Shown: piece by piece, positions 5,651 to 49,605 of the stretch
Layout: each line of letters begins with the position of its first letter
Position numbering within the stretch: the first letter of the stretch is position 1
DNA from: Plumapathes pennacea
Lineage: Eukaryota > Cnidaria > Anthozoa > Antipatharia > Myriopathidae
Direction: 5' to 3'
Length of the DNA: 64,000 nt
Assembly: GCA_964036295.1 (NCBI GenBank)
Contig: OZ038462.1
Location: forward strand, 10,464,440 to 10,528,439
Notes under the pieces: model-generated
What the model was told of the DNA's origin: nothing
What the model saw: only the letters and a program-made list of their open reading frames with translations
Databases searched by the model: none
Translations under genes and position numbers: made by a program

Positions 5651-5651
5651 A

Positions 5652-23760: not shown

Positions 23761-24924
23761 TCATTGTATTTTTGAGACATTTAAAAATCTCATTCCCATT
23801 TGTTGACTGTTTATGATCCTGTTCCTGTTTGTTTATACATAGATTGAAATGAATTTCTGAGTGATTGCATGTAATATTGTTATGTAATATAGTTGGTTAA
23901 AAAGTACTAGTAAATGGTTTTCACTACACTGATGCCATCTATACTCTATTTACAAACACAACAATACAGTACAAGTTGGAATTATCTAAAGAAGGTCTTT
24001 AATGCAGCAATACATGAATCACGCTGGGAGAAAAGGGTTCAAATTCTGCCAATGAAAATGGCCCTAATTTTGAAGCTGCCATATTGGCTTCCTGTGCATT
24101 GTGGTTAGGGTAATTGGCGGCAAAATCCTAATATGCGAAATGTATGATTCATTAGCTTTATTTACATACCAAACTTGTAGCGCTTCTTGAAACGAAATAT
24201 ATTTTGAGAGACCTCACGAGTTGGGAGGTGTCATGGCGTCCCTTCCAAGAGATACATTTGGAGAAGTTGTGCAGGTTTAAATTGAAAAGCTTCGGATTCT
24301 GTGAGCTTTTGGAGGAAAGTGTTGTACAGTCGGTGCTTTCGGTAAGTGCTTGGCCAATCCCAATTTTCGATTTCCCATTTCCTTTCGCTTTAATCACCAA
24401 GTTTTCAAGCTTACTTTGCGGTGTGTATGTACGTGGACCTCCAATTTCAGAATCATGGCCCTGCATAAAGGATACCGTTCACAATTTCCTGTGAACAAGT
24501 GGCAGGCAGCGAAGTGAAATCTGGGTGCAGATCTCGCCAAGGCTCTTTCCAAGGACCAGGACTACAGTAAAAAGATGAATCTTACACGACTGGAAAGAAA
24601 GGTAATATTATACATCAACTGCTTCGCTTCCGTGCTTGTTTGAGGTGTTTGTAGAGTCGGCGCGCATTCTGAAGGTTCATTTCAATTAATGCCAAGTAAT
24701 ATATCTGTTTTGCAGGCAAAGAAAGTTGATGACCACATGAAAGAAAACCAAAAAGCTACGGGGAATAAGGTTAATGTTTTCTGTTTTGTTGTTCTTCAGC
24801 TGTGTGTGGTCTTTTTTTCCAATAGCTTTATTTAAATTGCGTATTTTGTTTCTCAGCAGTGCTCTTCAATCATACATGTAATGCTACAAGGGCATTTACA
24901 GTAAGAAACTTATAAATATATTGT

Positions 24925-25361
24925 AAGGCTTGTGGGAAGGCCAAAACAGCTGTCCATGGCTGCTATTACTTGGACTCACAATTTTCTTTTTTTTTTTCTT
25001 TTTTTTTTTGGTAGATCAAGGGGTAATGCCCGCTACCACCGTGGCCTTTGTGCCCTATTCTGTGCCTTCAGCTTACCAGCACATTGTGCAGTATTCTGAT
25101 TATGTAAATTAAGCCACATCCCACAAGCCTTACGATTTTACAGTTTGTTACCTCAATGTGGGAACCCGAGCCCAAGTATAGCTATGCCGTGCTGACGAGG
25201 CCTAATAAGGCCGAAACAGCTGTCCATGGCTGCTATTACTTGGGCTCACAATTTTCTTTTTCTTTTTTTTTGGTAGATCAAGGGGTAATGCCCGCTACCA
25301 CCGTGGCCTTTGTGCCCTATTCTGTGGCTTCAGCTTACCAGCACACTGTGCACTATTCTGA
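24925..25361 (+). mobile_element. Retrozyme-like hammerhead tandem repeat
   Basis: This is 1.6 copies of a 270-bp unit: the ribozyme cut sites fall at 24954/24955 (incomplete copy) and 25224/25225 (complete copy), exactly 270 bp apart. Shared blocks include CAGCTGTCCATGGCTGCTAT, a T-rich run, GTAATGCCCGCTACCACCG and TTACCAGCACA. The insertion is bracketed by a 15-bp direct repeat, TTATAAATATATTGT, at 24910-24924 and 25362-25376; a few bases of it may belong to the element end. Tandem hammerhead units with target duplications fit the non-autonomous retroelements called retrozymes. It lies in an intron of element X1 gene A, on the same strand. Confidence 0.8.
25168..25247 (+). ncRNA. Type I hammerhead ribozyme, complete core
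   Basis: Stem I has an outer helix of 11 perfect pairs, GAGCCCAAGTA with TACTTGGGCTC, an internal loop, and an inner helix GCCGTG with CATGGC (one G-T pair). The core is CTGACGA at 25192-25198, stem II GGCCT/AGGCC with loop AATA at 25199-25212, GAAAC at 25213-25217, the palindrome ACAGCTGT, and the cleavage triplet GTC with the cut after 25224. All invariant core positions are kept. The internal loop opposite stem II is where tertiary contacts occur in natural type I hammerheads. The first unit keeps only its right part because it starts inside stem II (GGCCAAAAC at 24939), with one core change. Confidence 0.88.
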
Positions 25362-27697
25362 TTATAAATATATTGTTCCTCTCCTTTCTTTTAGCAGGAG
25401 GTAAGTGTCAGATTACAAAACAGGATTTTGACACCCACTTTCCTAAATGAGAATGGGCAAATTACTGGGCCTGGTCGCAGTGGGAGAGGGAGGAGAGAAC
25501 AAAGAATGAAAGCTGCTATGGAGCTGCATGGAGGAAGCCCTGGTAACACAATACCAGCATTTGAAGGAATGATGGCTGTATTGAATGCAAGTGCCTCTGT
25601 GCCAGTGTTGACTGCAGCAATTGAAAACTGTCCAAATTTTTACAATAGTGTCATTCCAGCAGTTGTTAAGGGTAATATTAGCAAGTTTGAAGGGTCTCAT
25701 CAAAATTTTGTCAGGAGTGTACATATTCTTTACAGGGGAGGGATTGCAAGCAAACGAAAGTATCAGGCAATAAGATCTTCACTAACAATGTGCAGAAGTG
25801 AAAGTGGCTTCTCCAAAAAGCATGTTGAATTTATGCCTAACATTGCTGTTCCTAAATTACTGACATACCAAGTGTTACTGTCCCAACTAAATGAAGTAAA
25901 CATTGGGACCCTGTATGATGTCAGAGAAACACTTTGCAATGGGTTAGAGGAGGAAATGAAAGTACATGGGAAGTACAGGGACCTCTCCCAGACTCTAGTG
26001 AGGCTAGCAGAATTCTATTTAACAGCAGACAGGTACAGGAGAGACAAGTTGAACTGGTTTGGTGAGGTTGAGGGTGCTTTCAAGGTAGCTATTGAGGGAG
26101 ACGGGGCCCCCTTTGGCAAAGATGACCAGGCCTTGTCTTGGCTGGTCAGCTTTCTGAACTGTGGACAAAGTGTATGTAGCCTTGAAGAGAATTTTCTCTT
26201 GTTTGGAGCAAACCGTCCACAAGACTGTGAACCGGTCCGCATATACCTCTTAAATCTAAACAAGGAAATGAAAGAAATTGAAGGAAAAACTTTCAGTTTC
26301 AGTCAATGGTGAGGACAAGGTTGTGACCTTCGCATTTGTATTGCTACCAAATGACATGAAGTACCTTGCTTTTCTTGGTGGTGAGCTAAGCATCTCAGCT
26401 GCCTACTTTTCCCCTTTTGCAGATGTCAAGAAGAGTGACATGAATAATCTTGAGTGTAAATATGGACCTGGACCTGGCAACAAGTGGAAACCCTGGAGGT
26501 ATGTTGACAGAATTAGAGTAGCCATTACAGTACAGCGAAAGAAGGAAGAATTAGACAAAACTGTTCTAAGACCTGCTACTAAGCGAGAAAAAAATACCAA
26601 ATTTATTTCCCAGAGAGCAAATCTAGACAAGAATTTGCACCACTTGTTGCTGAGTACATTGACAAGGCAAAAGCTGAACCCCTGCATTTGAAAAACAATG
26701 CTTGGCAACACTGGCATCAAGCTGTGATGAATTATGCTTTGTCCCAAAGTAATATTGAGAAGTGTCAGTCTCTATGCCAAGTGCCTTTAACAAGTTCCTT
26801 TGGCAGGTATTACAACTGTAGTTTGTAGTACAAGCAACAAGGTTGGCTAAGAAGGTAAGAAAGTGGTTCATCGACGGCAGACAAAAAAACAAGCCCTTGG
26901 AATACCGGTTTACAGGTAAGGAATCACGTCTTTGTTGCCAACATTTCATGGCAATCGTGCAAACTGAAACTGCTAAGGAGCTGCATTTATTTCAGTTGCA
27001 TGTGTTTGCCTACACAGCACTGAATCTCAGAGACTCAGTCTCCCTCTCCAGTAGGGTTCACCTCACTTTTGATCAGGTTGGAAATCTACGAACGGTTTGC
27101 TCCAATTTTTCCAGGGCTACAGCACTTTTTCTCTCAGGTACCCCCACCTCCTGGACTATAGGACATGTTGTTCCTGTACATGCAAAACAACTTCAACACG
27201 AACTTGGTCTGGGGCTCGGGGCTAACACCATGGAGGGGAGGGAGTCTAAACATGTCACCCTTGCACAATTTGCACATAACACCCAATTCAGTAAGAGGTG
27301 GGCACAAGTGTTCAAGCATGAATTTATATATCTGATTTGGTTGAGGGAAAATGGGTGTGATGCCATTGTTTACAGGAAGACAAATGCAGTATACATACCC
27401 AACAAATGCTATACTGATGAATATTGTTACTGTGGGCAGCCCAAGCAAATCAACAATGCTCAATGCCACTTTTGCTCTAATGCGATGCAAACTATTGTTG
27501 CAGACTGTGTGAAACAGGGAACAATCACACAGGAAGCAATGCAAAAATCCTGGGAAAGAAAATGTAGGATAAAATTGTGCATTTATTCAGGACTTGCATG
27601 CAAGTCTACAAGGATGTACGGTAATGCAAATTATTGGTGCTGTGCAAAACAGGGCAAAATTACTACGCAAGCAAAACAAATTTTGATGCCTGGTTGA

Positions 27698-28402
27698 AAA
27701 GCAACAGCACACCCTAAGGATAAAATACCCTAATTACTCACAACTTGCATACAGGTCCAGGTTTATATGGATTCGAAATAGATATACCAAAACTAGTTAA
27801 TCTGAAAACCCCTCTACAGCATTTCAATAAGGGGATGAATATTTTGGTTTGTAAGAATTTGTTACAGACACGCATTGCTCAACTTTCTAGGTTCTGATCT
27901 CCCAATCAAGTAGGTCACAAAATAGGGACCTCACCAGAAATTCTATTGTCTGATACAAGTTTCCAAGCATTATAATAAATTTTATAATTTATGATATATG
28001 ACAATATATATGATATTCGAAATGAGAGTTGACAAATATTTTTGTCACTTCTGTATTTCATTAGAAAACATTGTATTTGAACAGAACATATTTTTATTAC
28101 AGCAGAAAAGGCCGTGTTGTGAACTATAGACATACTGTAGCAGAACAAAGTTATCTGAATAAACTTTTGCCATTTTATCTGCTGAAAGATCTGAAAGATG
28201 TTTTTCTTCTGTTTGCAGATACACCATTTGTGAAATTTTGAAACGAATATTTGAATTTTACACATGCTGTGGCTAACCATACTTGTTCCAAACCCCATAA
28301 AAAAAGTCAAATGAAATTTCCTCAGACTCGTAGTTGTAAGGAATCCAAACTGCTTTTCTTCATCAATAATTGCCTCCACTTTCTTCTCTCCAGCTTTCTT
28401 CT
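27698..28402. other. Element X1 interior between convergent genes
   Basis: AT-rich. The minus-strand frame 27915-28379 begins in a charged stretch (DEEKQFGFLTTTSLRK) that could be a frameshifted continuation of gene B before it loses coding character. No other gene is supported. Confidence 0.4.
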
Positions 28403-28876
28403 TCAGAAAACTTTCTTCCGAAATTCTTCCCCAGTTATCTCACAAAACAGACGCCGTACTCTTGTTTTTGTAAAAGCCATGATGTGGTACTTCCTCGTCC
28501 TCTTCTCAATTAATCCGTAGCTTGTCCTACATACCACTTCTTCTATAACTTTAAAGAGTTCCTTACTCACTATGTCACTATGAACGACCTTCCATGGGTG
28601 TTTCACGGCACACTTGGACATCATTCGGCGCACGAAAGTCTTGTACCACCGCATCGAAATCCTTTTCATCATCGGATAGGCCTGTACCACCAGATGTCGA
28701 AATCTATTTCGGATATCTCCGAAATGGCGCTTCAAAAGTTCAGCAACCAACTGTAGCTCTTTCACAGCCTCATTGGTGGTGGAAGTATCTAAGTGAACAA
28801 GGATTGCTTCAGACTTTGCAACCAACAGCGCATCACGGAATATATTTTCAAATCGGATAGAAGATTCGCCCGCCAT
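28403..28876 (-). CDS. Element X1 gene B, unknown 157-residue protein
   Basis: The frame opens with ATG 28876, 80 bp inside the right terminus. I recognise no domain. It is mixed alpha-helical in character, with EAVKELQLVAELLKRHFGD near residue 40, SKELFKVIEEVVCRTSYGLI near residue 107, and a basic C-terminal part (KTRVRRLFCEITGEEFRKKV). The second copy has matching features in the same order: SEEIFGYLKDLLTCVSEYGL and KLELFFKDLLGDVFGGLPKK. Position, orientation and spacing to the terminus are also shared, which argues that gene B is a functional part of the element and not a chance frame. It may continue past 28403 after a frame change. Confidence 0.55.
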   Translation of the reverse strand: MAGESSIRFENIFRDALLVAKSEAILVHLDTSTTNEAVKELQLVAELLKRHFGDIRNRFRHLVVQAYPMMKRISMRWYKTFVRRMMSKCAVKHPWKVVHSDIVSKELFKVIEEVVCRTSYGLIEKRTRKYHIMAFTKTRVRRLFCEITGEEFRKKVF

Positions 28877-29134
28877 TTTTTTCCTTCATCCAACCGCTGA
28901 CCACTCGCATTGCGGGAAAGAAATGGCCGGAATTCGATCAAAAAATTCCCAGCGTGAATTATTTCACAAGGTTGATAATGAACAAACGCAGTTGCTGTTG
29001 GATATGAGCTTGATATAATGTATATGTGATAAACTCATATATATGAACTGCGGATAGGAATGAATCACGTGAATTTTGATCATCGCAGTGAGTGAAGCAA
29101 CTTAAGCAGTTGCAATGAGCCCGGAAAAAAATCC

Positions 29135-29206
29135 GAGCTTCAACGGGAATCGAACCCATGACCTTCACGATACCGGTGTGATGCTCTACCACTGAGCTAT
29201 GAAGCC
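29135..29206 (-). tRNA. tRNA-like gene 1, anticodon position GGT
   Basis: 72 nt cloverleaf: acceptor GGCTTCA with TGAAGCT (first pair G-T), D arm GCTC/GAGC, T arm ATGGG/CCCGT, with TTCGATT loop. A box TAGCTCAGTGG and B box GGTTCGATTCC are intact. The loop CCGGTAT puts GGT (Thr) at the anticodon, but position 33 is C not T and the last anticodon-stem pair is A-C, so decoding function is doubtful. Confidence 0.65.
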
Positions 29207-29387
29207 GTATGGGAGCTGGTCAAGTGTTTGGTTCGATTTGTACCCGTCATAGTGATTTGAATGATATAATGTATATATGTGATAAACTCATATATGTGAA
29301 CTGCGGATAGGAATGAATCACGTGAATTTTGATCATCGCAGTGAGTGAAGCAACTTAAGCAGTTGCAATGAGCCCGGAAAAAAATCC

Positions 29388-29459
29388 GAGCTTCAACGGG
29401 AATCGAACCCATGACCTTCACGATACCGGTGTGATGCTCTACCACTGAGCTATGAAGCC
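29388..29459 (-). tRNA. tRNA-like gene 2, anticodon position GGT
   Basis: Identical in the gene body to copy 1 and exactly 253 bp from it. Followed on its own strand by GGATTTTTTTCC, a polymerase III type terminator. Confidence 0.65.
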
Positions 29460-29641
29460 GTATGGGAGCTGGTCAAGTGTTTGGTTCGATTTGTACCCGT
29501 CATAGTGATTTGAATGATATAATGTATATATGTGATAAACTCATATATATGAACTGCGGATAGGAATGAATCACGTGAATTTTGATCATCGCAGTGAGTG
29601 AAGCAACTTAAGCAGTTGCAATGAGCCCGGAAAAAAAATCC

Positions 29642-29713
29642 GAGCTTCAACGGGAATCGAACCCATGACCTTCACGATACCGGTGTGATGCTCTACCACT
29701 GAGCTATGAAACC
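29642..29713 (-). tRNA. tRNA-like gene 3, acceptor-stem variant
   Basis: Innermost minus-strand copy. Its 5' end reads GGTTTCA in place of GGCTTCA, weakening one acceptor pair to T-G. The A and B boxes are unchanged. Its terminator has one more T than its neighbours. Confidence 0.6.
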
Positions 29714-29925
29714 ATATGGGAGCTGGTCAAGTGTTTGGTTCGATTTGTACCCGTCATAGTGATTTGAATGATATAATGTGAATGATATCACTGCGATGAT
29801 CAAAATTCACGTGATTCATTCCTATCCGCAGTTCATATATATGAGTTTATCACATATATACATTATATCATTCAAATCACTACGACGGGTACAAATCGAA
29901 CCAAACACTTGACCAGCTCCCATAC

Positions 29926-29997
29926 GGCTTCATAGCTCAGTGGTAGAGCATCACACCGGTATCGTGAAGGTCATGGGTTCGATTCCCGTTGAAGCTC
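29926..29997 (+). tRNA. tRNA-like gene 4, anticodon position GGT
   Basis: First plus-strand copy, beyond the inversion point. Body identical to copy 1. The upstream spacer carries one difference (CTACGACGG against CTATGACGG in the other plus-strand copies). Followed by GGATTTTTTTCC. Confidence 0.65.
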
Positions 29998-30178
29998 GGA
30001 TTTTTTTCCGGGCTCATTGCAACTGCTTAAGTTGCTTCACTCACTGCGATGATCAAAATTCACGTGATTCATTCCTATCCGCAGTTCATATATATGAGTT
30101 TATCACATATATACATTATATCATTCAAATCACTATGACGGGTACAAATCGAACCAAACACTTGACCAGCTCCCATAC

Positions 30179-30250
30179 GGCTTCATAGCTCAGTGGTAGA
30201 GCATCACACCGGTATCGTGAAGGTCATGGGTTCGATTCCCGTTGAAGCTC
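30179..30250 (+). tRNA. tRNA-like gene 5, weak terminator
   Basis: Body identical to copy 1. The downstream T run is interrupted (GGATTTTGTTCC), leaving only four T in a row, so polymerase III termination may be less efficient than in the sister copies. Confidence 0.65.
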
Positions 30251-30431
30251 GGATTTTGTTCCGGGCTCATTGCAACTGCTTAAGTTGCTTCACTCACTGC
30301 GATGATCAAAATTCACGTGATTCATTCCTATCCGCAGTTCATATACATGAGTTTATCACATATATACATTATATCATTCAAATCACTATGACGGGTACAA
30401 ATCGAACCAAACACTTGACCAGCTCCCATAC

Positions 30432-30503
30432 GGCTTCATAGCTCAGTGGTAGAGCATCACACCGGTATCGTGAAGGTCATGGGTTCGATTCCCGTTGAAG
30501 CTC
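30432..30503 (+). tRNA. tRNA-like gene 6, anticodon position GGT
   Basis: Body identical to copy 1, 253 bp from copy 5, with an intact T-run terminator. Confidence 0.65.
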
Positions 30504-30684
30504 GGATTTTTTTCCGGGCTCATTGCAACTGCTTAAGTTGCTTCACTCACTGCGATGATCAAAATTCACGTGATTCATTCCTATCCGCAGTTCATATATA
30601 TGAGTTTATCACATATATACATTATGTCATTCAAATCACTATGACGGGTACAAATCGAACCAAACACTTGACCAGCTCCCATAC

Positions 30685-30756
30685 GGCTTCATAGCTCAGT
30701 GGTAGAGCATCACACCGGTATCGTGAAGGTCATGGGTTCGATTCCCGTTGAAGCTC
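30685..30756 (+). tRNA. tRNA-like gene 7, no T-run terminator
   Basis: Last copy. The body is identical to copy 1, but the sequence after it switches to GGATATGAGCTTG, the 13-bp repeat also present at the left edge of the array, so the usual terminator is missing. Confidence 0.65.
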
Positions 30757-30769
30757 GGATATGAGCTTG

Positions 30770-31112
30770 TGAGTTAATGTAATCTGCTTTTGGGCAAAAT
30801 CAACAGTTTTGAGTGAAGATAACATGTTACAGATATCAAGTATAAATTGTTGCTTGTCAAGAAGGGTCATGGTAGGTTTCTGTCATTGTACAATATTTTA
30901 CATAAACATTCACACCTAAAGAGAGAAAGTGAAGGTGAAGGGGAATTTGTGCTATTCAAAAATCTCCATGGATTCCTTCCCCAGTTTAAGCTAGGTATCT
31001 CATTATTTCATTTCTTTTATCTGCCCCCTCTGCCTGTGGTAGAAAAATATCATTATTTTGATCATCATGGCCATCATTACAGTCATTATCAAAAAAGTCA
31101 CCGATATCACCT
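30770..31112. other. Spacer without supported gene
   Basis: An open frame from 30847 runs into the next feature but lies antisense to a recognisable transposase fragment, so I treat it as a shadow. Nothing else is visible. Confidence 0.45.
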
Positions 31113-31496
31113 TCACTTAGGAGACATGTTGTGCACCACACACGAGGCAACTACAATATCAGGTACGTCCCCTATTCTACTGATGTCCATTTCAGTTTTC
31201 AGCTTTCGGAACCTCTCCTTCAGAAGTGCCAATGACCTTTCCTCGATCATTCTCGTTAAGCTGTGCACGAAATTGTACCTTTTCTGGCTTCTTGTTAGAC
31301 ATCCATTGTCCTTAAAGAGAGTCAGAATCAAGGACCTTAGGGAATATGCAGCGTCTCCGATTAGGTGTGTACTCCCAGGAAATAACTGCCTTCGGTCCGC
31401 TTCTGCATCGTGATACAGTGGAGAATTTCTAAACATTCTTGCATCGTGAACAGATCCCGGGTACCCGCAAAAGGCATCCGTAAACTGCCTTTGCAA
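31113..31496 (-). pseudogene. PIF/Harbinger transposase fragment
   Basis: The frame contains GYPGSVHDARMF, STHLIGDAAYSL, a QKRYNFVHSLTRMIEERSLA block and VVASCVVHN. These are the middle and C-terminal parts of a Harbinger DDE domain: the second catalytic Asp (HDARMF), the GDAAY motif and the late Glu (MIEE). The N-terminal part with the first Asp is absent upstream, where in-frame stops appear. No termini were identified. It is a different, more decayed copy than the transposase at 38648-39835. Confidence 0.75.
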
Positions 31497-31594
31497 CCAT
31501 CAAAGAAACGTCGACAAGTGACGCAGTACTCTAATACTATGATGTCACAAAGCCCACAACAGTATCAGTATCATCATATGGACTAGGAGCTTGT

Positions 31595-32012
31595 TTGATG
31601 CAAGATGGTCGACCAGTGTGTTATGCATCTAGATCCCTCAATCCTGCAGAGAAAAACTATGCACACATTGAGAAGGAGCTGTTGGCAATAGTGCATGGGT
31701 GCACCAAATTCCATCAGTACATCTATGGAAAGAAAGTCAGAATTGAGACTGACAACAAGCCATTGGAAACTTTGTTCCGAAAACCCTTACTTCAAGCCCC
31801 ACAGAGGTTGCAAAAATTGATGCAGAGGCTCCAGCGTTATCATTTGCAAGTGGACTATGAACCAGGAAAGAACTTGCACATTGCAGACACTCTAAGCCGT
31901 GTGCCCGAGTGAAGCAAAGAAACAGTAAATCTAAGGTATGAATTTGAAATATTGACCATTGAGAACCTCCCAGTGAGTGTGGAGAAGCTGCAGGAGTTCA
32001 AAGAAGAAACGG
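31595..32012 (+). pseudogene. Gypsy RNase H fragment
   Basis: The frame reads QDGRPVCYASRSLNPAEKNY, HIEKELLAIVHGCTKFHQYI, RIETDNKPLETLF and DTLSRVPE. These are the catalytic Glu and Asp regions of a gypsy RNase H domain, with the first Asp upstream of the break lost. It ends at TGA 31910-31912, but gypsy-like sequence continues to the insertion point of the next element, and the matching continuation resumes at 34007. There the 9-bp duplication AGAAGGACC marks the split. Confidence 0.8.
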
Positions 32013-32263
32013 AGAAGGACCTACCCTGGGTGCCAGAGGTTCCTCGCTCTCGGCAGCCGTGAGAGGCTGGGGGCGAGGCGGGCCGAGGCGGGCTGGGGGA
32101 GGCTGGGGGCGAGGCGGGCCGAAGTGAGGGAACCTCTGGGCGCGCCGTGTCACCTATTGTTCTCAGAGACCAATTATGAATCGAGTTTCATTCCGCGAGT
32201 CAGATTCTGACCCTGGCGCGCTGATTGGCTCGCTCCAAAACCGGTTTGCCTATGCGAGTAAAA

Positions 32264-33274
32264 ATGGCTTCCGAAGTGTTCTTGCTCGAAGTTGCTCTAG
32301 CTTTGACAGAACTAATACGTACAAAATTCCCAGAAATCGAAAGGTTGAGAAAGCAGCAGTTGGATGCTATTCTTCAGTTTATTTTCAAGAAAGATGTCTT
32401 CCCGGTTCTTCCCACTGGCACGGGGAAGTCGCTCATATTTCAAGCGATTCTCGACTTGTGCGCTAAGTTAGGCGAGAGAGGCATCGTTGGGTATCACACA
32501 AAGCCGATATTGCTGGTAATATGTCCACTAACATCGCTAGCCGTCTCGCACATAACTGAGTTGAGCAGAAGAGGTATTTCTGCGGCATCTCTTTCTGGAG
32601 AAAAAGTGGACGAGGTAGGAATTATGAAAGGCGAGTATCGAGTTGCATCGCTAGCACAGAATCTCTTATCAGAAATGACAAGTGGCGTCAAATGCTTCGA
32701 AGCAAAGTGTATCAGGATCGAGTATTTGGCGTCGTCGCAGACGAAGCTCATGTTGTTCCGAAGTGGTAAGTAAAACAAGTTGTTTACTTTGTTATGGTTT
32801 GATTCCCGAGAGAGATCAAAACCCATACCTAACGTTGCCTCGATCGAACTGCCATGCTAAGTTTGAGGTTCCAATGTCTTATACTGAATATAGGCACAAA
32901 AAACTTTTATCCTATGCAAGGATGAAATTTAATAGATAGTTTGACATCAGTCCTTTTTAGGCTTTTTCTGAATATGCATCATGAACATTTTTCAGCACAT
33001 TTTCCACTTTTACTTGAAGGATTATGCTGTAATACCACTGTATTTGTGTTGATTAATAAAGTTTATTATTTTAAGAACTATGTGTTGTTCTTGTGACCTG
33101 AAAGTAACCAAATACCAGACAAGTGCAAACATGCTGCTGGCAATGTTTCACCACAACACCCTCAACAGACACAAGGACCGGGTACTTGAATCATTGTTGA
33201 ACCAGGATGGAGTGTGTCGTGTGGTTTTTGCCTCTACTGCCCTCGGAATGAGAGTTAACATGAAGGACTATTAA
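32264..33274 (+). pseudogene. RecQ-like helicase, internally deleted
   Basis: From ATG 32264 the frame gives a helical N terminus, RKQQLDAILQFIFKKDVF, Walker A PTGTGKSLIFQ, CPLTSLAVSHITEL and SAASLSGEK. A one-base shift near 32675 then leads into FGVVADEAHVVPKW, the DEAH-type Walker B, right before a donor GTAAGT. The second RecA lobe resumes at 33080: MLLAMFHHNTLNRHKDRVLE and VVFASTALGMRVN, which is motif V of the RecQ group with R where G is usual. The segment between motifs III and IV and everything after motif V are missing. It is probably an ATP-dependent DNA unwinding factor captured or used by the element. It ends at TAA 33272-33274. Confidence 0.75.
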
Positions 33275-33742: not shown

Positions 33743-34006
33743 ATTACAAATTCTCGCAAGCGCGAACTTACGGTACTGCACTTCACATGTCACACCAGCG
33801 AACAAAACCTGTTTAGCTAGATTTACATTTTTCGCGCGTTTACCAACTTGAATTAATAATTAACGGAACAGGAAAGTGACACGTCGCGCCCAGAGGTTCC
33901 CTCGCTTCGGCCCGCCTCAGCCCCAGCCCGCCTCGGCCCGCCTCGCCCCCAGCCTCTCGCAGCTGCCGAGAGCGAGGAACCTCTGGCACCCAGGGTAAGA
34001 AGGACC

Positions 34007-35121: not shown

Positions 35122-35124
35122 ATT

Positions 35125-35845: not shown

Positions 35846-35932
35846 ATTATCACGTGCTGGGCGATGACGTAATTGACTTTGCTAAACAACTCGAGATGTG
35901 GCCAGTGAATTGCTCGTTACTTGTGTGTAAAA

Positions 35933-38647: not shown

Positions 38648-39835
38648 CTAGTTTTCCAGCGTTATTAGGGCCGGGCATACGTAGATGGGTCTTCCTCTGG
38701 GATTAGCGGGAACATCCTCAATACGGTCACCCATCTCGACACAAATATTGTGCAATATGCAGCAGGCGATGAACGTGCGGGATACTTTCCGAGGATGTTC
38801 ATCCAGACGCTTGTTCAAGCAGCGCCAACGAGCCTCTAACTCACCAAATGCTTGTTCCACTTTTACCCGTGCCTTGCAGTGGTTCCTGTTGTAGACACGC
38901 TCACCTGCACCACAAAGGGCATTTTGTGGGTAGGGCTTCATTAACCATTCCGATAGTGGGTACGCAGAGTCACCAAGCAGCAAAGGCGGAATGTTTCTTC
39001 CTCCAATTCGGCGTACAGGTTCAACTAAAATTTCTCCGTTTTCCATCTTCTCGAACACCTTGCTATATCTGAAAATACGGGCATCGTGCATGCTGCCGGG
39101 GTACCCAACGCTCACGTCGATAAACTTTCCTTGGGCACTAACGACAGCTTGTGCTGCAATGCTGTAAAATCGTTTTCTGTTGAAATAATCTTCTCTATTC
39201 GTCGATGGTCCTTTTATGGCAATATGCGTGCCGTCTATTGCTCCGACAACCTGCGGGAAATTAGAAATTTCTTGAAATGCATCGATAGCTTCCTGTACTT
39301 CGTCCCTTGTTTGCGGAAATCGAATTACGGCCGGCGACAAGCGACACAGCGCCCTGCAAACTTCGTCAACAATAAAGATAGCAGTAGACTTTCCACAACC
39401 AAACTGAAGTCCGCAACTGCGATAAGTGTCTCCTGAAGCGAGGCGCCACAATGCAAGAGCAACCCGTTTAGGTACTTCAATTTCATTTCGCATTAGGGTG
39501 TCTTCCTTAACAATCTCTGGCCAGACTCTTTCACAGATAGTTGCAAAAGTCCTTCTGGAAATGCGAAAATGTCGCCGCCACTCATCCTCTTCAGCACGGC
39601 TGTTTAGGATGGACATAAACCACTGCTGAGGTCTTGGGAAAGCCCACGTTAACCGGCCGCGACGTTACTGTTGCTCTCTAAGATAGCGGTGCAAGCCAAC
39701 AACGAGCCTTTTCCTCCGTTGCCTCTGGAGCATGAAAATCCTAATTCTTTTCAGTCGTCTGGATCGGGCTTTCCATATTAATTTTCTTAGCAAAAACAAG
39801 GCAGAGAGACCGATGATAACGTTTGCAAAGGCCAT
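38648..39835 (-). pseudogene. Harbinger DDE transposase, one premature stop
   Basis: From ATG 39835 (MAFANVIIGLSALFLLRKLI) the frame is continuous to the stop at 38648-38650, except for TAA at 39665-39667 (codon 57). Without it the protein would be 395 residues, close to the family norm. Motifs: an HTH-like WRLASGDTYRSCGLQFGCG, catalytic D in VVGAIDGTHIAIKG, D in GYPGSMHDARIF, LLLGDSAYPLSEWLMKPY, and E in VKVEQAFGELEARW, ending ACCILHNICVEMGD. All three catalytic acids are present. Initiation at the internal ATG 39616 would give 322 residues that still contain the whole catalytic core. It cuts and joins element ends with ATT/TWA-type targets. Confidence 0.92.
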
Positions 39836-40047
39836 AGTTTTTACAACTCCAAAGTCCAGATGCTGCCCTTTCAGAACGTGTTCTATTTCATTTATCTAAT
39901 CGGATTAGGAAGTTAGCTGTCATGTTTGATACATTCAAGAGAGCACGAATGCCGCCTCTTCTAAATCACGATTTATCTTGCGGTTTCCTTAATCAAGATT
40001 TAGGGTGCTTAATCGTGATTTAGCTTTCTAGTGTGACCACAGCCATT

Positions 40048-41864
40048 GTGAACAAAACCGCAATAATATTGTAAACATCTCTCATGTGACATTCCCCGCT
40101 TTCAATTTTATATTTGTTACAGAGCACAAATACTCGAAAGCCTGATAGAAGAAACGTATTGAGTTAATAAAAGAAAACACATAAGTAGTGAAGCGAAGGC
40201 TGGATTAACCGTGGTCTCTGATTAGAAAGAGTCAAGGTCAAACTGTCATAATCGATTGTGCATAAAAAGATATGTCACGCATTCTCAAGATGCAGGGTTG
40301 CTCAACCTTTAAACAAGGACCCTCGCTATAAAAGGGATAGCTCCTCCCCCTTTCCCGTGATGTCAGCACAATTTTGAAAAATAAAATGAGTGAGTGAGCA
40401 GCAAACCAAATATACATATTTCGGTAAAACTCTCCCTTTATCAAGAGAATAATTAAGATAATATTCAGTTGTGGACAATTGTTGTGAATAAAGTACTCTG
40501 TTGCGTTTATTTACTTGCTTTTGGACGATTTTAGCTGTTTTTTTGACGAACGTTTGAATTTCGCGCTCGTAAACCGTCACTGTCAACCTCGGCCCACCAT
40601 TACTTTGCCACAGTCTCCCCTCTCCTTGTCTTTTTGAGCCTGCAGAGCAGCTGAACGCGATCTTTCTCATCCTAGCATGCTCCAGGGGGGTTATTATTAT
40701 ACACTGCTCCATTGATAGCGGAAGTTAAACAATTGTCGTTGTTCTCTTCCACCTTCAATTGAGCGGTTTCTCACACACATGCGATCACTTAGTTTTCCAA
40801 TTTTTGCGTAGCTGGTTATCATGGATCATTCGTGTACCAAAAAGCCAAAATTAACGACCTTCCAAGCTCCTCGACTGCGATTTTACCATCCAATTAGAAG
40901 TGGAATCCCGTATAGAGGATCGCCTCAAAGGATTGAAGACGCGTATTCAACATGCCAAGAATGTGCTTTCGATAACTGGCCAAACGCCACTGGGAAACGT
41001 TAGGATGTTGGAACGGCTTTTAGATTCTTTTGAGCAGCAAGAGCGGGGACATTTGTCTAGTCGTCGTGTTCCTTCCTTCGGCCAACGGAAGAGTTGATGT
41101 TCACACTAACCGAGATTTGCCCTCCTTAGCGGCAGGTAACGAGAAACTTTCTTTATTCTGTGTAAATGTTGTGTCTATCGCTGTAATCAAAAACCGTGCA
41201 AGCAAGGACCTTTGATCCTGCAGATATCTGGTTGAGCCAAAGACCCGTTGGTCTAGGCGGGAAATTCGCATTGCGGTCGTGCTGATATTGTCGATTTCAT
41301 TTCTTTACGTGTTATCCTAAACCTAAATTAAAATAGTAGTACAATTGACATTCCTAATAAATACTCTCGAGCTCAAAGTAATAAAATAAAATTTCAGAAA
41401 GTATTGTGTATAATGTGTTTAGTTATACGCTTTAGTTATCTCTCTCTCTCTTCGGCTGTTATCACTGACCAGATCATGCAACATGCTTGCAACTGTAACC
41501 TGCAACTTCTTTCTGCATGTCACAAAATATACATTACATTGTCTCTGAGTGTTTGAGAAGTTACTGATTCCCAGTAAATGCTGTACTAATTAGTTTAGTC
41601 TGGACAATGAATCTGATGGTCTGTTTTGGTGGACTTTCATTTTGTTGCCCTGGCCCTGGTTGTGCAAAGCCTGAAGCTAATACAGGATGAACTGAATTCT
41701 TTTATTCTTGGCCAACAAACCACAGGATTTTGGTTGAAGACAAACCTGCAGAAACAATGCTCTAGCTCTAAATATATTGATGAACATGTTGTAAGCGAAA
41801 CCTTCTAATTTCAGACCCACAAATGGCACAGTAGTTTGGAACTAATCCAGAAAGGAGAGTATCT
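40048..41864. other. End of duplication, then spacer
   Basis: Up to about 40190 this is the rest of the second 615-bp unit. Beyond it I see no convincing gene. A short frame near 40900-41095 (RIEDRLKGLKTRIQHAKNVL) looks helical and might be an exon fragment. A CT-rich microsatellite (TCTCTCTCTC) lies at about 41441-41452. Confidence 0.4.
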
Positions 41865-42041
41865 TGTAGTTTGAACCTAACTTCCGCTATATCTAGCTTA
41901 CTTCCGTTTCCGTTTTGCTATGCGCACGTGCACCACATACAGGACTGTCTCATGAACGCTGCTCACTCACCATCTTCATAATAAAAGTTGCGTTCAATAT
42001 CTTTGGATATCAAGGCCATTCTTTATACTAAAACCACAACA
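41865..42041 (+). repeat. Putative gypsy 5' LTR
   Basis: Starts TGTAGTTTGAACC and ends CCACAACA, with AATAAA-like sequence (CATAATAAAAG) about 55 bp before the end. It is followed directly by TGGTGTCAGTAGTCTGAG, shaped like a tRNA primer-binding site, and then by a gag gene. No 3' LTR partner is present because a BEL/Pao element truncates the copy. Confidence 0.55.
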
Positions 42042-42120
42042 TGGTGTCAGTAGTCTGAGCAGAACCTTGAGCCTTGAGCCTTGGCTTGGTGTATTTTCTT
42101 CGTTTTCGACTCACAAGTCC

Positions 42121-43179
42121 ATGGCAGAACTTGCTGGGCTACCGATTCCTCGTATGGACTGGGCATCCCAAGATGCACCGCAAGCGCTCAAAAAGTTCAG
42201 AGTGCTATGCGAACTCTATTTTGGCGGCCCTCTTAAAGAAAACAGTGAGCTCAAGAAAACCAACTACCTGTCAGGATCACACCTTCAAATCTGGTCGGGC
42301 AAAGAATTAATCGAGTTAGTCTCTACATAGACGCGCAATGAAGAAGCAAAGACACTCAGCTCATATCGGACCAAATTCCAATAGTACGTCGCTCCAAAAA
42401 GCAACTTCAGGCTGTCAAGATTCAAGCTCTGCACTCCCAAAAAGAACCTGGAAAATTGTTGATGCATTCATAAAAAAAGTATGCATCCTGGCAAATGAGT
42501 GTAAATTCACGAATGCTGATCAACATTTCACATTATCGATGCACTGATATTTGGTACCAACAAGGGTGTACAATCTAAGCTGCTAGAGCACGATGCTACA
42601 CTGACATTCGACAAAGCAATTGACATGAATTGCCAGAAGCCAAGAAGCAACCAGTAACCAACTGCAAGATATTAGAGGCAAAGCAGCAACCAATATAAAC
42701 GTATTGAAATACCGTGGGCATCCGAAGCAAACCACACACAAATAAACACACAATAACTGTGGTACCAGTTATAATCTGTCACAGAGATCATCGTGCCCTG
42801 CTTACAGAACAAAGTGCAAGGCTTGTGGTAAGGACAACCACTGGAGAAAAGTTTGTCGCCCTGCCAAGCCTCAGCAAGGCAACCCTAAACACAGGACCAG
42901 TCCAGCACCCAAGCAAGGAAAAGATAAACAAACGCATGATGCACACACTCTCCAAGAGTATGCAAACCAACCCTTAATGCCAGAGCTACCGCAGTTATAC
43001 TTCAACTCTCTATCAATAGACAACATGGTAGAGAACAATGCCAAAGCAGAACTCCAGGTACATGTAGACTCTGGGCAATGCACCATCTCCCTTTGCTGCA
43101 AAATTGGAGCAGAAGGCAATGCTCTTCCTGTGAGTACCTACAAACAGATATGTCCAAAAGCACCATGTGACACTAATGG
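42121..43179 (+). pseudogene. Gypsy gag and protease start, decayed
   Basis: The frame opens MAELAGLPIPRMDWASQDAP at ATG 42121, then ALKKFRVLCELYFGGPL, typical of gag proteins in this gypsy lineage. After several frame changes a CCHC knuckle appears in KCKACGKDNHW (42811-42846). The protease begins as LQVHVDSGQCTISLCCKIGA, where the catalytic D-T/S-G expected before AEGN is missing, apparently by a short in-frame loss, so the protease is dead even locally. The gene stops at the TGTGGGAAATTG start of the BEL/Pao LTR. Confidence 0.7.
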
Positions 43180-43424
43180 TGTGGGAAATTGAGTTATATA
43201 ATTTTCAAGCAGTCAGATCACCCAAGATCTCTGTACAGTATTGTTGTCTGGCCAGTTTAGTCAGCCAATCAGGTTCATACCTGTCTGAGTTGTGACATCG
43301 ATTAGTTTATTGTGATGTCTAGGATTTCAGGTTTTTTGCTTCACGTGTTGTGAAATCAAGTGAGTTCAAATAAAGCAGAAGTGTATTCGTAAACTGTGTG
43401 TTGGAACAACTACTATTTCCGACA
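43180..43424 (+). repeat. BEL/Pao 5' LTR
   Basis: Ends are near-complementary as usual: TGTGGGAAAT at the start and ATTTCCGACA at the end. About 245 bp long, with AATAAAGCAG about 55 bp before the end. After it comes CAGTGGCACCTCC, a plausible primer-binding site, then a BEL/Pao gag. I could not match a 3' LTR near 53.8 kb. Confidence 0.7.
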
Positions 43425-43552
43425 CAGTGGCACCTCCAAACGGGGCTTAAAGTGAAGAAGGATCCAGAATCTTGAGATGGAGGAGATCAGCCTAAAATTA
43501 AAGACGGAATCGCAACTATTACAGTTATCCAGGAGTTAAACTAAAAGTGTGA

Positions 43553-45536
43553 TTGAGAAGGGAAATCGGCAGAAAATACAAAAGTAAAGTCGTGAGTTCC
43601 CAGGAAGACCTCAAACTGCAGGCAGAAAAGGTCAAACTTGAAGCGGGAAAAAGCATCAAACAGCTGGAGAAATGGGGAGTCGAACCCGAACGGAGCGTCA
43701 ACGAAGCCAACAATGAAATATGCCACCTAGATCACTGCCTTGAAGAAGCCGCCACAAGGGCGGAAATGACAAATGCGACAAAAAACTCTACTCGCTCAAC
43801 AACATGAAGAGGAGCTCAAGTTTGTGAAGTAAAAACTCAAGCAGCAAGTGAAAATGCAGTCGGCAGAGCAAGCTGCCACAAAGCCAGCGAAGAGCAGCCG
43901 GGCCAAAATGCCGAAATTGGTCATAATAAAATACGACGGAACGTACGAGAAGTGGCTGTCCTTTTGGAACAAGTTTGAAGCTGAGATTGATTCGATGGAC
44001 CTACCAGCAGTGACCAAATTCCCTCATTTGAAGGAACTGTTCGAAGTCAATGTTTGCCAAGGAATTGATGGCCTGCCTTTCACATCGAAAGGATAGGAGC
44101 GTCCCAAAAATATATTGAAATCAAATTACGGAAAGGTCAGTGAAATAATCAAGGCGTATGTGGAGAGCATACAGGACCTGCCAGTCATAACAGGAACCCA
44201 GCCAAGTAAAATCCACAAGTTCTGTCAGACATTGAACTATAACATCCAGTCTTTGGAAACTTTAGGCAAGCTATCAGATTGTCTATCTATGGTGCGTGGG
44301 GTTCTTGACAAGTTGCCAGAGATCAAAGCGGGGCTAGTAAGTAACAAGTTCGGCTGGCAAAACTGGGGCTTTGCTCAGCTCATGGAAGCCCTTAAGGACT
44401 GGAAAGCAATACACCCAGTTGAAATGGCAAACAAAAACAACAAGGAACCGCCACTGCCACGCCAAAGAAGCTTGTATGCTCAAGAGCAAGTTCAACCGAC
44501 GCGAGGATGTGTTTGTTGTGATGACATAACACATAAATCATTTGAGTGTCTGGAAGTTAATTCACCCGCTGAACCCAGACAAATATTACAAATCAAGACT
44601 GTGTTTTAATTGCAGAGGAAGCAGACACCATGCAGCCCAGTGTTGTAGCCGTACTTTCTGTTTCCATTACAAGTGAAAACATCACTCCTCTATCTGTGAC
44701 AAAGCAAGTAAACCAGTGGTCAATGGAGGAGCAGGTATGACAGCAACACATGAAGGGGAGAGAGTGTGCCATCCAATTGTTGTCGTTAAGGTGAATGGTG
44801 TTGCCTGTCGGGCATTCTTGGACACAGGCACAACTGTATCATATGCTTCAGGTTACATATTGGATCACCTGAAACTCGTGACTTCACATACGCTCACGCA
44901 TCGGATTCAGACCATAGTTGGCATAGTTACGAAGCATGCCGAGATACAAAAGGAAAGCACGTCATTCCCATGTGTGCTACGAGAGTGCACCATGGAGAAC
45001 TGTTGTCGGTGGACAATCCAAAGTATGAAGAGTTCATCAGCAGCTACCCTCACTTAAGAGGAGTATATATGGAGGATACGGACACCAAGAGCCAGCTTCC
45101 TGTGCGGATTATCCTGGGGGCGAGTGAGAACACCAAGATCAAGACATGCAAACCCCAGTGAACCGGAGCCATGGGTCAACCCATCGCTGAACATACATGG
45201 TTTGGCTGGACCATAATGTCATCAGGAGAAGAGGCAAACCTGGGCAACATGTTCTTGACACAGACTGCCATGGCCGACTAAAAAGGTCTTTGCCGAATGG
45301 ACGTCCTTGGTCTCAAAGATCAACCCAGCAGAGATCAGAACATAGAGTTCCTGGAACAGCTCCAGCGTAGCCCGGAAGGATGGTACGAGACTGTCCTCCT
45401 GTGGAAAGGAGACCACCTCCCATTACCATCAAACAAAGCAGGCAGCTTGAAGCAATTGGGGAGCTTGGTGCAACAACTGAAGAAGACCGGGAGACTGGAT
45501 GAATACGATGCCATTATCCAGGACCAGCTAAAAGAA
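43553..45536 (+). pseudogene. BEL/Pao gag, protease and RT beginning
   Basis: Pieces in three frames give the polyprotein order of BEL/Pao: a helical start (SQEDLKLQAEKVKLEAGKS), the DUF1759-like gag core (PKLVIIKYDGTYEKWLSFWN, FPHLKELFEV), a cysteine cluster (GCVCCDDITHKSFECLEV), the DUF1758-like aspartic protease with FLDTGTTVSYAS at about 44815, and then the start of the RT region (MDVLGLKDQ, GWYETVLLWKGDHLPLPSN, RLDEYDAIIQDQLKE). It is broken by stops at about 44094, 44607 and 45055 and by frame changes. At 45536 element X2 splits the RT; the reading continues at 49606 after removal of X2. Confidence 0.8.
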
Positions 45537-46176
45537 CACACTGGGGATCTGTGGGCCCTCAAACGCTCACGTACTTACCTAACCACGCGCGCTAGGTATC
45601 TTGGGTAGAACGCATCCAGGGAAATTGAGCATCACATATGGGCATTTTAGCCTCCACTGGCGGTAAATTTACATATTGGAGAACGGCCATCTTGTTGACG
45701 AATGCCTGCCCTTGAAAATGATACATTACATGGATGGATTCACCACGCTTTTGCCCATATAAACCGGCATGATAGGTTTGCGAAGAAGGTCGCAAAGGAA
45801 GAATTAACTCGTGTGGCTGTAAAAAACTCGGAGATATGAATTCTGAAGGATCATTGTTCAGATCTTGTGAAGGAGATAGAGACCATAAAATATAAGGTAT
45901 GTTGTAATATACTATCCTCATTTATATATACCTTTCACTTCCAATGGTGATCAAAATACGTACATGTATGTCATACAGTGTGGAGAACTTGGCTTTTGAT
46001 AGTTTGATAAGATCGATTCTTATTGGGAGAATATGTATGAAAGTACAATACTACCTCATTTAGAATACTGCATTGCATCATTGTATCATTTATAAATAAT
46101 CGAAATATTAAAAATATAAATGTAAATAAAGTATATAAAATATAAATAAAAAATATAGCATGTCCTATTTTGACTT

Positions 46177-48401
46177 TTGCAGAGAGATTTTAATGAAGAC
46201 CATAAGACACATCTGCCACGGAGCTCAAAATCAAAGCAAGTGACCTCTTTTAAAGATGGTAATAGTGAGGTTTTGGACCTTCTCCCAAGTTCAGCACAAA
46301 AACAAAGACTACATACTATTGAATGTGCCACTGAAATCCACGGACATTCTAGCCTATCACCCACTAAGAAAGAAAAGCAGCCTTAGAAGGGCTTTTTAAC
46401 ACTGTTGTAAATAATTCATCAACAAAACAATGTGTGATATGTCAAAAGGTTCAAAGAAAGTGTGTGAGAAAGTTGTACCAGAACTAGCAAATAATGCAGT
46501 GAGAGTTTGAGAACTCCACTGATAACACTATCCGCTCTGTCATGACACTTTACAGGGGAGGGCTTATCAGCAAAGCCAAATATAACAGTGTCAGAAGTTC
46601 TCTAATGTACACAAGCAAGAAAACTAAGACCACTGGGAAAGTAAGGTCTGAGTTGAGTAATGGCATAATTATCCCTAAATTATTGTCATATAAGAAACTG
46701 ATGCAGTTCATTAAGTCAGTCGACATAGGTGAACTTAAGTCTGCCAAATGGTGAGGATGAAGACACTGGTGAGGATGAAGACAGTGAAGGAGCTTCTCCT
46801 ACACATAATTCAATTTCTGGTTGCAACATTGCTCTTCAAACTCGCTTGCTGCAGTTAGCAGATCTATACCTCTCTTTGGATAAGGTAAATCCTATTCTTG
46901 CTTGGTTTGGCAATCCCCCTGGGGCATTTACGGTTGCTATAGGTGCAGACGGTGCCCCCTTTGGAAGGATAATGAAGCCACCTCATGGTTGGTGAGTTTT
47001 CGTAACTTAGGGAACCGTATTGCAAGTTCCGAAGACAATGTTCTTATTTTGGGGGCAAATTGCAAGGAGAATCACCCAGCAATGATCAACTATGCAAAGC
47101 AAATCATGGGCAAAATAACAAATATTGAAAGCCAGACGTATGAAATTCAAAGGCATGAAGATGTTGTTATTACATTCAAATTTGAACTTGTCCCTTCTGA
47201 CATGAAATGGTTGGCAAAATTTTCAGGGGAACTTCAAATGCTGCAATGTACCCATCTTCATTCGCCAATGTTAAGAAAGATGATTTAATTAATGTTCATG
47301 GTAACCTTGGGAACAAAAAGTCATCCACTTGGCAGCCATGGCTGTAGGACCAAAGAATTAAAGTGGCCAAACTGGTCACAGATTACAAGAGCAAGATTTC
47401 TGTGAACAAATCTCCAAAGCAACAGAGGAATTTAGTAACTAAATTAATTTCCAGTAAGCAGTCGAGACAGGAATTTGAACCATTTTTGGGCAAAATGTGA
47501 ACCACTCCACTTAAGAAATAATTGTTGGCAGGAGTGGAACAAGCAAGTGATGACCATTGCACTGACCCGCACTAACATTGATCCTACTACAGCCACAGTC
47601 AGCCAACTGCCATTTGACTGCTGCTTTCGAAGGTATCTTCGTGCAGTCAGAAACCAGGTTAGGTCTCACAAGCTTTACAAGAAAATCCTCAGGTGGTTTC
47701 GAGAAGAGAGAAAGGAAAAGGATTTTCAGTGCATGTTCACAGGAGAAAAAACCCGAAAATTTTGCCAAAATTTTATGTACATCATTGAGGCTGTAAATTT
47801 ACTAAGTGACACAGAAGCAAGCAGTGTTAAACTTTATGCTCTAGCATATACGGGGTTGAAGCTGAGAAATGCTACATCTCGTATGAACAGAACCACAGAT
47901 ATTGATCAAGCAGGTGTTGACGATCTGGAGAAAGACTGCCAACAATATGTTATTTGTAGTGCATTGTTTCTCAACAAAGTCACATTCAGTATGTGGACAG
48001 TGGGTTTCTGTGTCCCGTACCACACTAAGTCTTTGTTTAAAGAATTTAAAATTGGTCTTGGCATCGATACCATGCAGGGCAAGGAAGCAAAGCATCAGAA
48101 ACTTGCAAACTATGCGGGCTTTTCTCTGCCAAAAGAAAGGTGGCAAAAGGTTTTTTTGCGTGAGCACATGTCATTGATCTGGCTTACACTGCAGAACCCT
48201 TACTTGGTGAAGTATTCCAAATCAAATGTGCAGTACATCCCGAAGTCATATTAATTTGACGATCTCTGTTTCTGTGGCCTCCCCAAAGCAACTGAGTACT
48301 CTGGGTGTAGGTACTGCCAGTCACCATTGATGGCAAAAGTAGCTGCATGTGTTACAGCAAAAAAGATTACAAATGAAATGGGAAAGATTTTCTCCTCCTG
48401 A
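46177..48401 (+). pseudogene. Element X2 gene A, putative transposase
   Basis: An exon begins after TTTTGCAG at 46177. Blocks shared with X1 gene A, in order: NTIRSVMTLYRGGLISKAKY, IPKLLSYKKLMQFIKSVDIG, FTVAIGADGAPFG (46929-46967), WLVSFRNLGNRIASSEDNVL, ILGANCKENHPAM, ELVPSDMKWLAKFSGEL, DFQCMFTGEKTRKF, LYALAYTGLKLRNAT, WTVGFCVPYHTKSLF, GLGIDTMQGKEAKH, and a C-terminal CFCG then CRYC pair. Identity is low enough that these are old, separate lineages, which makes the shared blocks informative. Breaks include frame changes near 46740 and 46967, a stop near 47347, and TAA 48252-48254; the final stop is TGA 48399-48401. An earlier exon may lie near 45710-45840. Confidence 0.65.
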
Positions 48402-48893
48402 GGCAATCTGATATTTATAGTTCACTTTCCAACTGTAATATAGATTTATTAAACTTACTGTAATAGACATTTTCAAGGGCATAACATTGTAATGCAAGGC
48501 ATTATTAGATTTCTTAGTTATCTAAAGGAAGTTTTCTTTATCAAAGTTTATTCTGTAATCAGATATTGTTGACTGTTGCAATAAACTATTTGAAATGTTT
48601 ATATCATGTGATGTGTTACACTGATTCTGATACCAGGAATAATTTCTCTATGTTTTCTGAGTACACACAATAACTAACAACTGTGTCCATAAAAATGGCA
48701 TAAACAAAACAATTTATAGTCATTTCCTAGGATGTAGATTTACAGTTTATAGGCCTAAGAAAACTGGGACATAACAAACTATCAACCAAAATGGTCAAAA
48801 TGTCTTCACTCTCAGTTGATAATTTATAGCTTGAATAATACTGTAAAGTAAAATGTCAAATGTAAATATTTGTTCTGCTCTCAGGTAAACAAT
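48402..48893. other. Element X2 interior between convergent genes
   Basis: AT-rich, no gene supported; presumably the 3' untranslated ends of genes A and B. Confidence 0.4.
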
Positions 48894-49534
48894 TCAAAGG
48901 TGCTGCGGCACATTGTGTGCATTCCATAGGCCATAAAAACAACAGATCTCGATTTTTGCTATCACATTAGTGTATTTGATGGTGAACAACTTCTCCTTAG
49001 ATACAAATAGTCTTATGGTGCTACCCTGGAGAACCTTCTTTGGAAGACCACCAAATACATCACCAAGAAGATCCTTAAAAAAGAGCTCAAGTTTCCTGGG
49101 GTACCAGATTTGAATTGTAGTTTTCTTGTTACCCTCCAGGCCATACTCACTCACACACGTCAATAGGTCTTTCAAATAGCCAAATATTTCCTCGCTCATT
49201 CTGTGGCAAATATCGATCCTGTATGGGGACCCCTGCCTTGGAGTTCTTCGCATTCGCCTGCAGATTGTCTTCATCCAATACAGAACTTCTTGACAACTAA
49301 TGTACGCATTTCCCCCATGGCACAATGTATTCCTTGTCTGTCATTCGTTGCTGCATATTTCCTGATTAACTGCAATTTTGCTGAACGTAGCTCCTTGAAA
49401 AAGTCCATCACAGCAACTCTTTGGTCCACATTATGGCTGGGAATAGAACAGTAAACCTCAGCCTCCTTTTCCTTAAAGGTCGCATCCAAGATTGCACTCA
49501 TATTTATAGAAGCAATCAGTCGAGCTGCCACCAT
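48894..49534 (-). pseudogene. Element X2 gene B, unknown
   Basis: ATG 49534 opens MVAARLIASINMSAILDATF, then a helical DQRVAVMDFFKELRSAKLQL. A frame change near 49280 leads into EVLYWMKTICRRMRRTPRQG, then SEEIFGYLKDLLTCVSEYGL and KLELFFKDLLGDVFGGLPKK. The last two blocks align in order and spacing with SKELFKVIEEVVCRTSYGLI and RVRRLFCEITGEEF of X1 gene B. I do not recognise the fold. Its size class and position next to the right terminus suggest a DNA-binding or regulatory partner of protein A, which is a guess from layout alone. Confidence 0.55.
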
Positions 49535-49605
49535 TTTGAAAATCTCGCACAGAGCCTCGATATGGTGTTGAGCCTTTCAAAGCCAATAAATTCCCAGTGT
49601 GTAAG

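Follow-up and report, generated by a model that had tools for sequence, protein, structure and literature searches.

Between the CAC ends of ProtoRAG elements lie a gene for a CMCT-like transposase and a second gene convergent to it, and these elements generate 5-bp target duplications (CMCT: CACTA-Mirage-Chapaev-Transib/RAG1). A comparable arrangement was found in a stretch of 64,000 nucleotides from the antipatharian Plumapathes pennacea (assembly GCA_964036295.1, contig OZ038462.1, positions 10,464,440 to 10,528,439; hereafter the window), where two elements, X1 and X2, each contain a large gene A and a small, oppositely oriented gene B. They are decayed copies of one DNA-transposon family. 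We propose, with a probability of about 0.75, that this family is a divergent, apparently zinc-site-less, CMCT-related cut-and-paste lineage in which A would act with a partner protein B. In PMC12730594 the CMCT clade is defined by a C(2)C and an H(3-4)H motif between the second catalytic Asp (D2) and the catalytic Glu (E), by CA...TG ends and by 2-5 bp duplications, and the two zinc motifs are given there as common to all CMCT lineages listed.

The limits of both elements were read directly from the sequence. X1 (24020..28956, plus strand, 4937 bp) has the termini CACGCTGGGA and TCCCAGCGTG and is flanked by the target duplication AAT on the left (24017..24019) and on the right (28957..28959), the junctions reading gAAT/CACGCTGGGA...TCCCAGCGTG/AATt. 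X2 (45537..49601, plus strand, 4065 bp; termini CACACTGGGG and TCCCAGTGTG) lies inside a frame labelled BEL/Pao-like by eye, and its junctions read aGAA/CACACTGGGG...TCCCAGTGTG/TAAg, with GAA at 45534..45536 and TAA, which is GAA with one change, at 49602..49604. Since the interrupted frame (...IIQDQLKE / X2 / (TAA)GIVEKAEMPAAG...) is restored after exactly three bases, the duplication of X2 is 3 bp. A search for the empty site of X2, allowing up to 3 mismatches, gave 0 matches. The motif CAC(A/G)CTGGG occurs at five sites in the window against 0.83 expected, a number reached in none of 100 shuffles, and the ends of X1 and X2 account for four of the five. The preliminary description of this DNA had proposed two-gene transposons with these outer limits and the same flanking triplets; the direct reading bears this out, save that the end of X2 is at 49601 and not at 49602, one base further, as given there. 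Other copies in the genome that have CAC ends and 3-bp duplications support the claim as well, and X1 and X2 are confirmed as genuine transposon copies.

Gene A of X1 is spread over three frames. Its N-terminal part (25395..26312, plus strand) includes the first predicted catalytic Asp, D1 (GDGAPFGK; D codon 26100-26102), D2 (LPNDMK) and a YFSPFAD motif stand in another frame (26272..26691, plus), and the C-terminal part (26822..27697, plus) contains HVVPVH, the putative catalytic Glu (MEGRESKH; E codon 27242-27244) and the CYCG...CHFC cysteines. X2 carries several stops and frame changes. Its gene A fragment at 46884..47288 (plus) holds D2 (LVPSDMKW), and D1 (GADGAPFG; D codon 46948-46950) lies within the same interval in a different frame; the C-terminal part at 47448..48254 (plus) has EPLHLRNN and the presumed catalytic Glu (MQGKEAKH), and CFCGL...CRYCQS is found downstream of an in-frame stop. 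The motifs first noticed in gene A (DGAPFG, an LGAN-type motif, M(E/Q)G(R/K)E(S/A)KH and the C-terminal Cys pairs) are carried by both copies despite the broken frames.

Gene B is on the minus strand in both elements. In X1 it is frameshifted: the open part (28403..28885, 160 amino acids, aa) starts with an ATG that lies 80 bp inside the right end, and the tail continues in another frame within 27915-28439. In X2 the C-terminal open part (48894..49340, 148 aa) ends in NVPQHL, and the N-terminal part is broken and extends to about 49535, its start lying, by eye, about 66 bp from the right end. A start 68-80 bp from the right end, as described previously, applies to X1 and only approximately to X2. 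The gene B blocks of the two copies had been described as aligning; the likeness between X1 B and X2 B is weak (24% over 79 aa, 28 bits), but each of them matches B of other copies.

The genome search covered the 290-Mb assembly of 24 contigs, the window included. Loci were pooled from three B queries and one A query, B matches at places already in the list not being counted again, and all counts are lower bounds: at least 58 A matches at 47 loci and at least 54 B matches at 44 loci. At 39 of the 47 A loci B is located downstream of A on the opposite strand, and at none on the same strand; seen from the other gene, 39 of the 44 B loci are paired with A, and at five no A was found. The gap between A and B is 19-1613 bases, with 7057 bases at one locus, where by eye a retroelement-like frame intervenes. 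The two-gene model is upheld by this pairing, and an absence of B from most full-length copies, which by the preliminary description would have refuted it, was not observed.

Recent multi-copy amplification was established directly. The five copies of family 1 (L042-L045, L047) are 98.2-99.9% identical in their aligned pieces, 4542-4847 bp long and sharp-ended. Their 15-bp terminus CACGTCGGGCTGGAG occurs at nine sites in the 290 Mb; each site is an end of one of these five copies, and the one remaining end carries a mutation. Family 2 (L038-L040) comprises three copies of 5241-5245 bp with 98.8-99.7% identity, and its left terminus of 20 bases is present at six genome sites at no more than one mismatch. 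Another copy of family 2, L046 (G000:C3:13671000-13680500), has no gene A match; it matches the left end of the family, and its match to the right part comes within 8 bases of the end. A further family has six A matches for which the open frame measures 746 aa, and with every one of them goes a B match in a frame of 255 aa. Nine of the 47 loci have an open A frame of 738-746 aa that is free of stops in the match, and one more frame, in L056, measures 714 aa; the frame of L036 has 744 aa. Between families the synonymous sites of A and B are saturated (pS 0.79-0.85), and the nonsynonymous divergence, pN, is 0.25-0.56. Within-family omega, based on 0-7 changes, was not used, and neither was the L029-L030 pair, in which L030 is in the wrong frame with 10 stops.

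Target duplications, the tabulation of which had been suggested earlier, were surveyed at 21 loci (X1, X2 and 19 others), and both ends were found in 12 copies, L043 among them. End pairs were chosen in a way that gave preference to matching triplets, except in the two young families, where loss of identity set the ends. Eight of the 12 have identical 3-bp duplications, namely AAT (X1, L047), CAT (L038), TAA (L039), GAA (L040, L042) and AAA (L041, L045); three have 2-bp duplications, L036 (AC), L043 (GC) and L044 (GT), and in X2 the two 3-bp flanks differ at one position (GAA/TAA). By duplication length alone the family could belong to Academ instead of CMCT, since duplications of 3-4 bp are given for AcademX in PMC10045372. 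According to the same paper Academ lineages are associated with a helicase or nuclease that they encode, and no helicase or nuclease match was obtained in A or B with Pfam, so that we regard Academ membership as very improbable.

The A protein is about 714-750 aa long and has the motif order D-D-LH-E, with 81-83 residues between D1 and D2, 106-112 between D2 and LH, and 298-305 between D2 and E in five full or nearly full proteins. The D-D-E order with a long insertion between D2 and E, the LH motif, the distance between D2 and the place of the former C(2)C, the CA...TG termini and the 2-5 bp duplications are all features of the CMCT clade. The C(2)C and H(3-4)H motifs of the clade, in contrast, are missing or incomplete between D2 and E of A. 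Position D2+19 is Ser in seven of seven A rows and D2+22 is Ala in six and Gly in one, that is, S(2)A/G, where RAG1 and EnSpm have C/C. In the H(4)H pair the first His is kept in four of eight rows (otherwise Y, K, N or F) and the second in seven of eight, the pair being complete in four; the second residue of this H(4)H-like pair is 21 positions upstream of the Glu of A, compared with 20 in RAG1. After the Glu, CxC and CxxC are complete in six of seven A rows, the seventh (L030) being out of frame there. These residues suggest that no zinc is bound at the first site of A, and the cysteines at the C-terminus may bind it instead. Because the C(2)C/H(3-4)H pattern is lacking and the other features of the clade are present, the family was filed as a divergent CMCT relative and not as a canonical member. 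The C/DxxH motif between the second D and E, given in PMC10045372 for the hAT/P/MuDR/Kolobok/Dada group, was looked for by eye, and no conserved column pair of this kind was seen in that interval of A.

According to the preliminary description no named superfamily could be given for A. It can now be placed near the CMCT clade, weakly by statistics and without the zinc ligands of the clade, because the order, residues and spacing of the motifs, the termini, the duplications, a calibrated EnSpm score and three RAG1 residues agree. The D of DGAPFG and the E of M(E/Q)GRE, picked out earlier as catalytic, align with the catalytic residues of EnSpm and RAG1. The comparison set consisted of EnSpm proteins of the same genome and mouse RAG1 only. 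For EnSpm, PF02992 (Transposase_21) marks 23 places in the genome, from which seven sequences were used (L048, L050-L055), with L049 and the second frame of L050 excluded. The A profile aligned to EnSpm in hhalign with a score of 28.6, while reversed controls gave 18.9 and 17.6, and 200 column shuffles gave a mean of 18.6 (standard deviation 3.0, maximum 29.2), one of them at or above 28.6. D1 paired with D1 in three A-EnSpm profile alignments and D2 with D2 in two, and in a sliding score over the seven EnSpm proteins the D1 segment ranked 1, 1, 3, 4, 5, 5 and 6. The likeness is evident in the first Asp segment (SSDGAPLIK in L055, GADGAPFGK here) and in the second Asp with the spacing after it.

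The weak alignment to EnSpm of the same genome, together with CAC...GTG ends and 3-bp duplications that fit EnSpm as described in PMC12730594, would also agree with an ordinary divergent EnSpm/CACTA family, perhaps one held in Repbase or Dfam, gene B being its usual second product. We consider this unlikely, since PF02992 does not match A at E 1, none of its 23 places coincides by eye with an A match, the C(2)C pair retained by EnSpm is missing from A, and D2, LH and E fit RAG1 better than EnSpm.

The letters of mouse RAG1 were taken from PDB alignments, in the numbering of which D600, D708, C727, C730, H795, H937, H942 and E962 are what we take to be the catalytic and zinc residues; the piece starts at D600, so that D1 is outside the RAG1 scan. 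The D2 segment ranked 6-48 in EnSpm and 1 of 375 in RAG1, the LH segment (17 residues) 2-70 in EnSpm and 1 of 392 in RAG1, and the E segment 1 of 366 in RAG1, the segments having been chosen around motifs already seen, so that these ranks are support and not clean probabilities. The best RAG1 positions of the three segments are exactly D708, H795 and E962, and a chained D2-LH-E scan with loose spacing limits returned exactly these positions, with a score that was reached by 31 of 1000 shuffles; for D2 alone 5 of 1000 shuffles reached the score. PF12940 (RAG1) had no match in the genome, and the control was also without a match.

Several results weigh against a CMCT-related two-gene lineage. 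No significant Pfam, NCBIfam or PDB match was obtained for A; its Pfam lines are unrelated only, at E 0.13. The probability that hhalign itself assigns to A-EnSpm is 1.0-1.6% (P 0.03-0.05), with 1.6% and P 0.03 for the calibrated alignment, in which D2 is three residues off. The E segment ranks 141-721 in EnSpm at the exact register (2-56 within two positions). When five EnSpm proteins were scanned with chained motifs including D1, all motifs were recovered in none and D1 alone once (L054), and in the EnSpm chained scans 52-91 of 150 shuffles were as good. In RAG1 other LH windows performed worse (outside the top four; rank 18), the LH and E segments do not rise above shuffles (729 and 929 of 1000 reach them), and hhalign of A with RAG1 stays at the noise level (16.4 when D708 is in register, 18.2 elsewhere), as is that of the accepted EnSpm-RAG1 pair (17.8). 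AlphaFold, run on window fragments only, gave a pLDDT (predicted local distance difference test) of 37.4 for A (2 rows) and 56.9 for B (2 rows). The three copies with 2-bp duplications and the eight of 47 A loci at which no B was found belong here too; among these eight are short fragments and L058, a distant frame of 901 aa on C7.

L058 (G000:C7:10540450-10541250) is a distant A relative with a 901-aa open frame, 28% identical; LQAKESKH and the cysteines at the C-terminus are kept in it, and no B was found nearby. It would represent either a second lineage or a host gene, and G000:C12:5592647 was grouped with it as a distant A relative. Among 28 stretches of viral contigs matched by the A profile there was no relative, and a match of the profile to a decarboxylase (E 0.39) was treated as chance.

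The B protein has 205-235 aa in four intact frames translated and is basic (pI, the isoelectric point, 9.5-10.3 and net charge +9 to +18 in five proteins, two of them partial). Its recurrent features are an RR pair in the centre, with P(W/F/Y) after it, and a tail of the type YG..N..G(I)PQH. In nine of 11 copies measured the first Met lies 78-122 bp inside the right end, in X1 80 bp, and in L041 the conserved MA start of B is found further inward. Because pN of B between families (0.31-0.56) is well under the saturated pS (0.81-0.84), the frame is kept as protein. No family match was obtained in Pfam and profile searches, Pfam lines appearing only at E 0.05 or more, no match was present in phage records, and RAG2 was absent among the matches of B. 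Three entries of poxvirus core protein E11 (E 0.028-0.078 with the B profile) were treated as chance. The coevolution of A and B, measured over the 28 pairs that 8 loci give, was not significant (Spearman 0.24, P 0.21); the three pairs closest in A are the three closest in B as well.

Judged from these properties, B most likely serves in transposition as an accessory subunit that binds the ends or the target or is a partner of the transposase. Another possible role is that of a factor against host silencing or of an element regulator, not a transposition factor. No recognisable domain is present in B, and extra genes of fungal DNA transposons, according to PMC12730594, are thought to oppose silencing. 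This role we find rather improbable; against it stand the constant place and orientation of B at the 39 A loci and the small, basic protein as expected of a DNA-binding subunit.

In the proposed mechanism A would cut at the CAC...GTG ends and link these to the target with a stagger of 3 bp, in some cases 2 bp; the conserved CxC...CxxC after E may hold zinc in place of the C(2)C and H(4)H site of the clade, and B, a small basic protein encoded convergently at the right end, would help A. The fold of A, an RNase H-type transposase in the preliminary description, which also took B for an essential partner, is inferred from sequence, as are catalysis, the loss of zinc and the role of B. Should this be true, a catalytic order kept with Ser and Ala/Gly for the Cys pair would mean that CMCT transposases can lose the zinc site and that such members escape motif searches. 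The constant convergent partner gene would then be a second natural case, beside RAG1/RAG2, for why such transposases acquire helpers, and open-frame copies are available for assay. The string DGAPFG was not found in the literature searched; Repbase, Dfam and most journals are outside this scope, so the family may be published. A more far-reaching proposal, tentative and with the odds somewhat against it, is a separate superfamily-level CMCT lineage that has lost the structural zinc site and fixed an obligatory convergent second subunit, an independent parallel of RAG1/RAG2 that was recently amplified and of which near-identical open-frame copies remain.

The window contains further features. 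On the minus strand, 2720-8020 is a Helitron-like block, presumably a Helitron, with frames carrying OTU protease, PIF1 helicase and DUF6570 domains. Positions 29135-30756 are occupied by seven tRNA-Thr(GGT) genes, first three on the minus strand and then four on the plus strand, with a spacing of mostly 253 bp (284 at the turn), and this array starts 179 bp from the right end of X1. A Myb/SANT-like frame (22880-23602, plus) and a DDE_Tnp_4 frame (38648-39664, minus) represent the two protein types of Harbinger-like elements, their joint origin here being only a candidate.

Of the known systems, Chapaev3 shares the CAC/GTG ends, the 3-bp duplications and the LH motif with the present family, and is unlike it in its TWA duplications, C(2)C and H(4)H (PMC4079192); here TWA is seen in one (TAA) of the eight clean duplications (AAT, AAT, AAA, AAA, GAA, GAA, CAT, TAA). 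From RAG1 the A protein differs in the D2-E distance, 254 residues in RAG1 against 298-305. ProtoRAG is unlike in its duplication length and in its second protein, since B is a protein of 205-235 aa without a RAG2-like match and is no RAG2. The likeness to ProtoRAG and RAG1-RAG2 consists in the CAC ends, the CMCT-like transposase with a convergent second gene, and the D2, LH and E segments of A, which fit RAG1 best at D708, H795 and E962.

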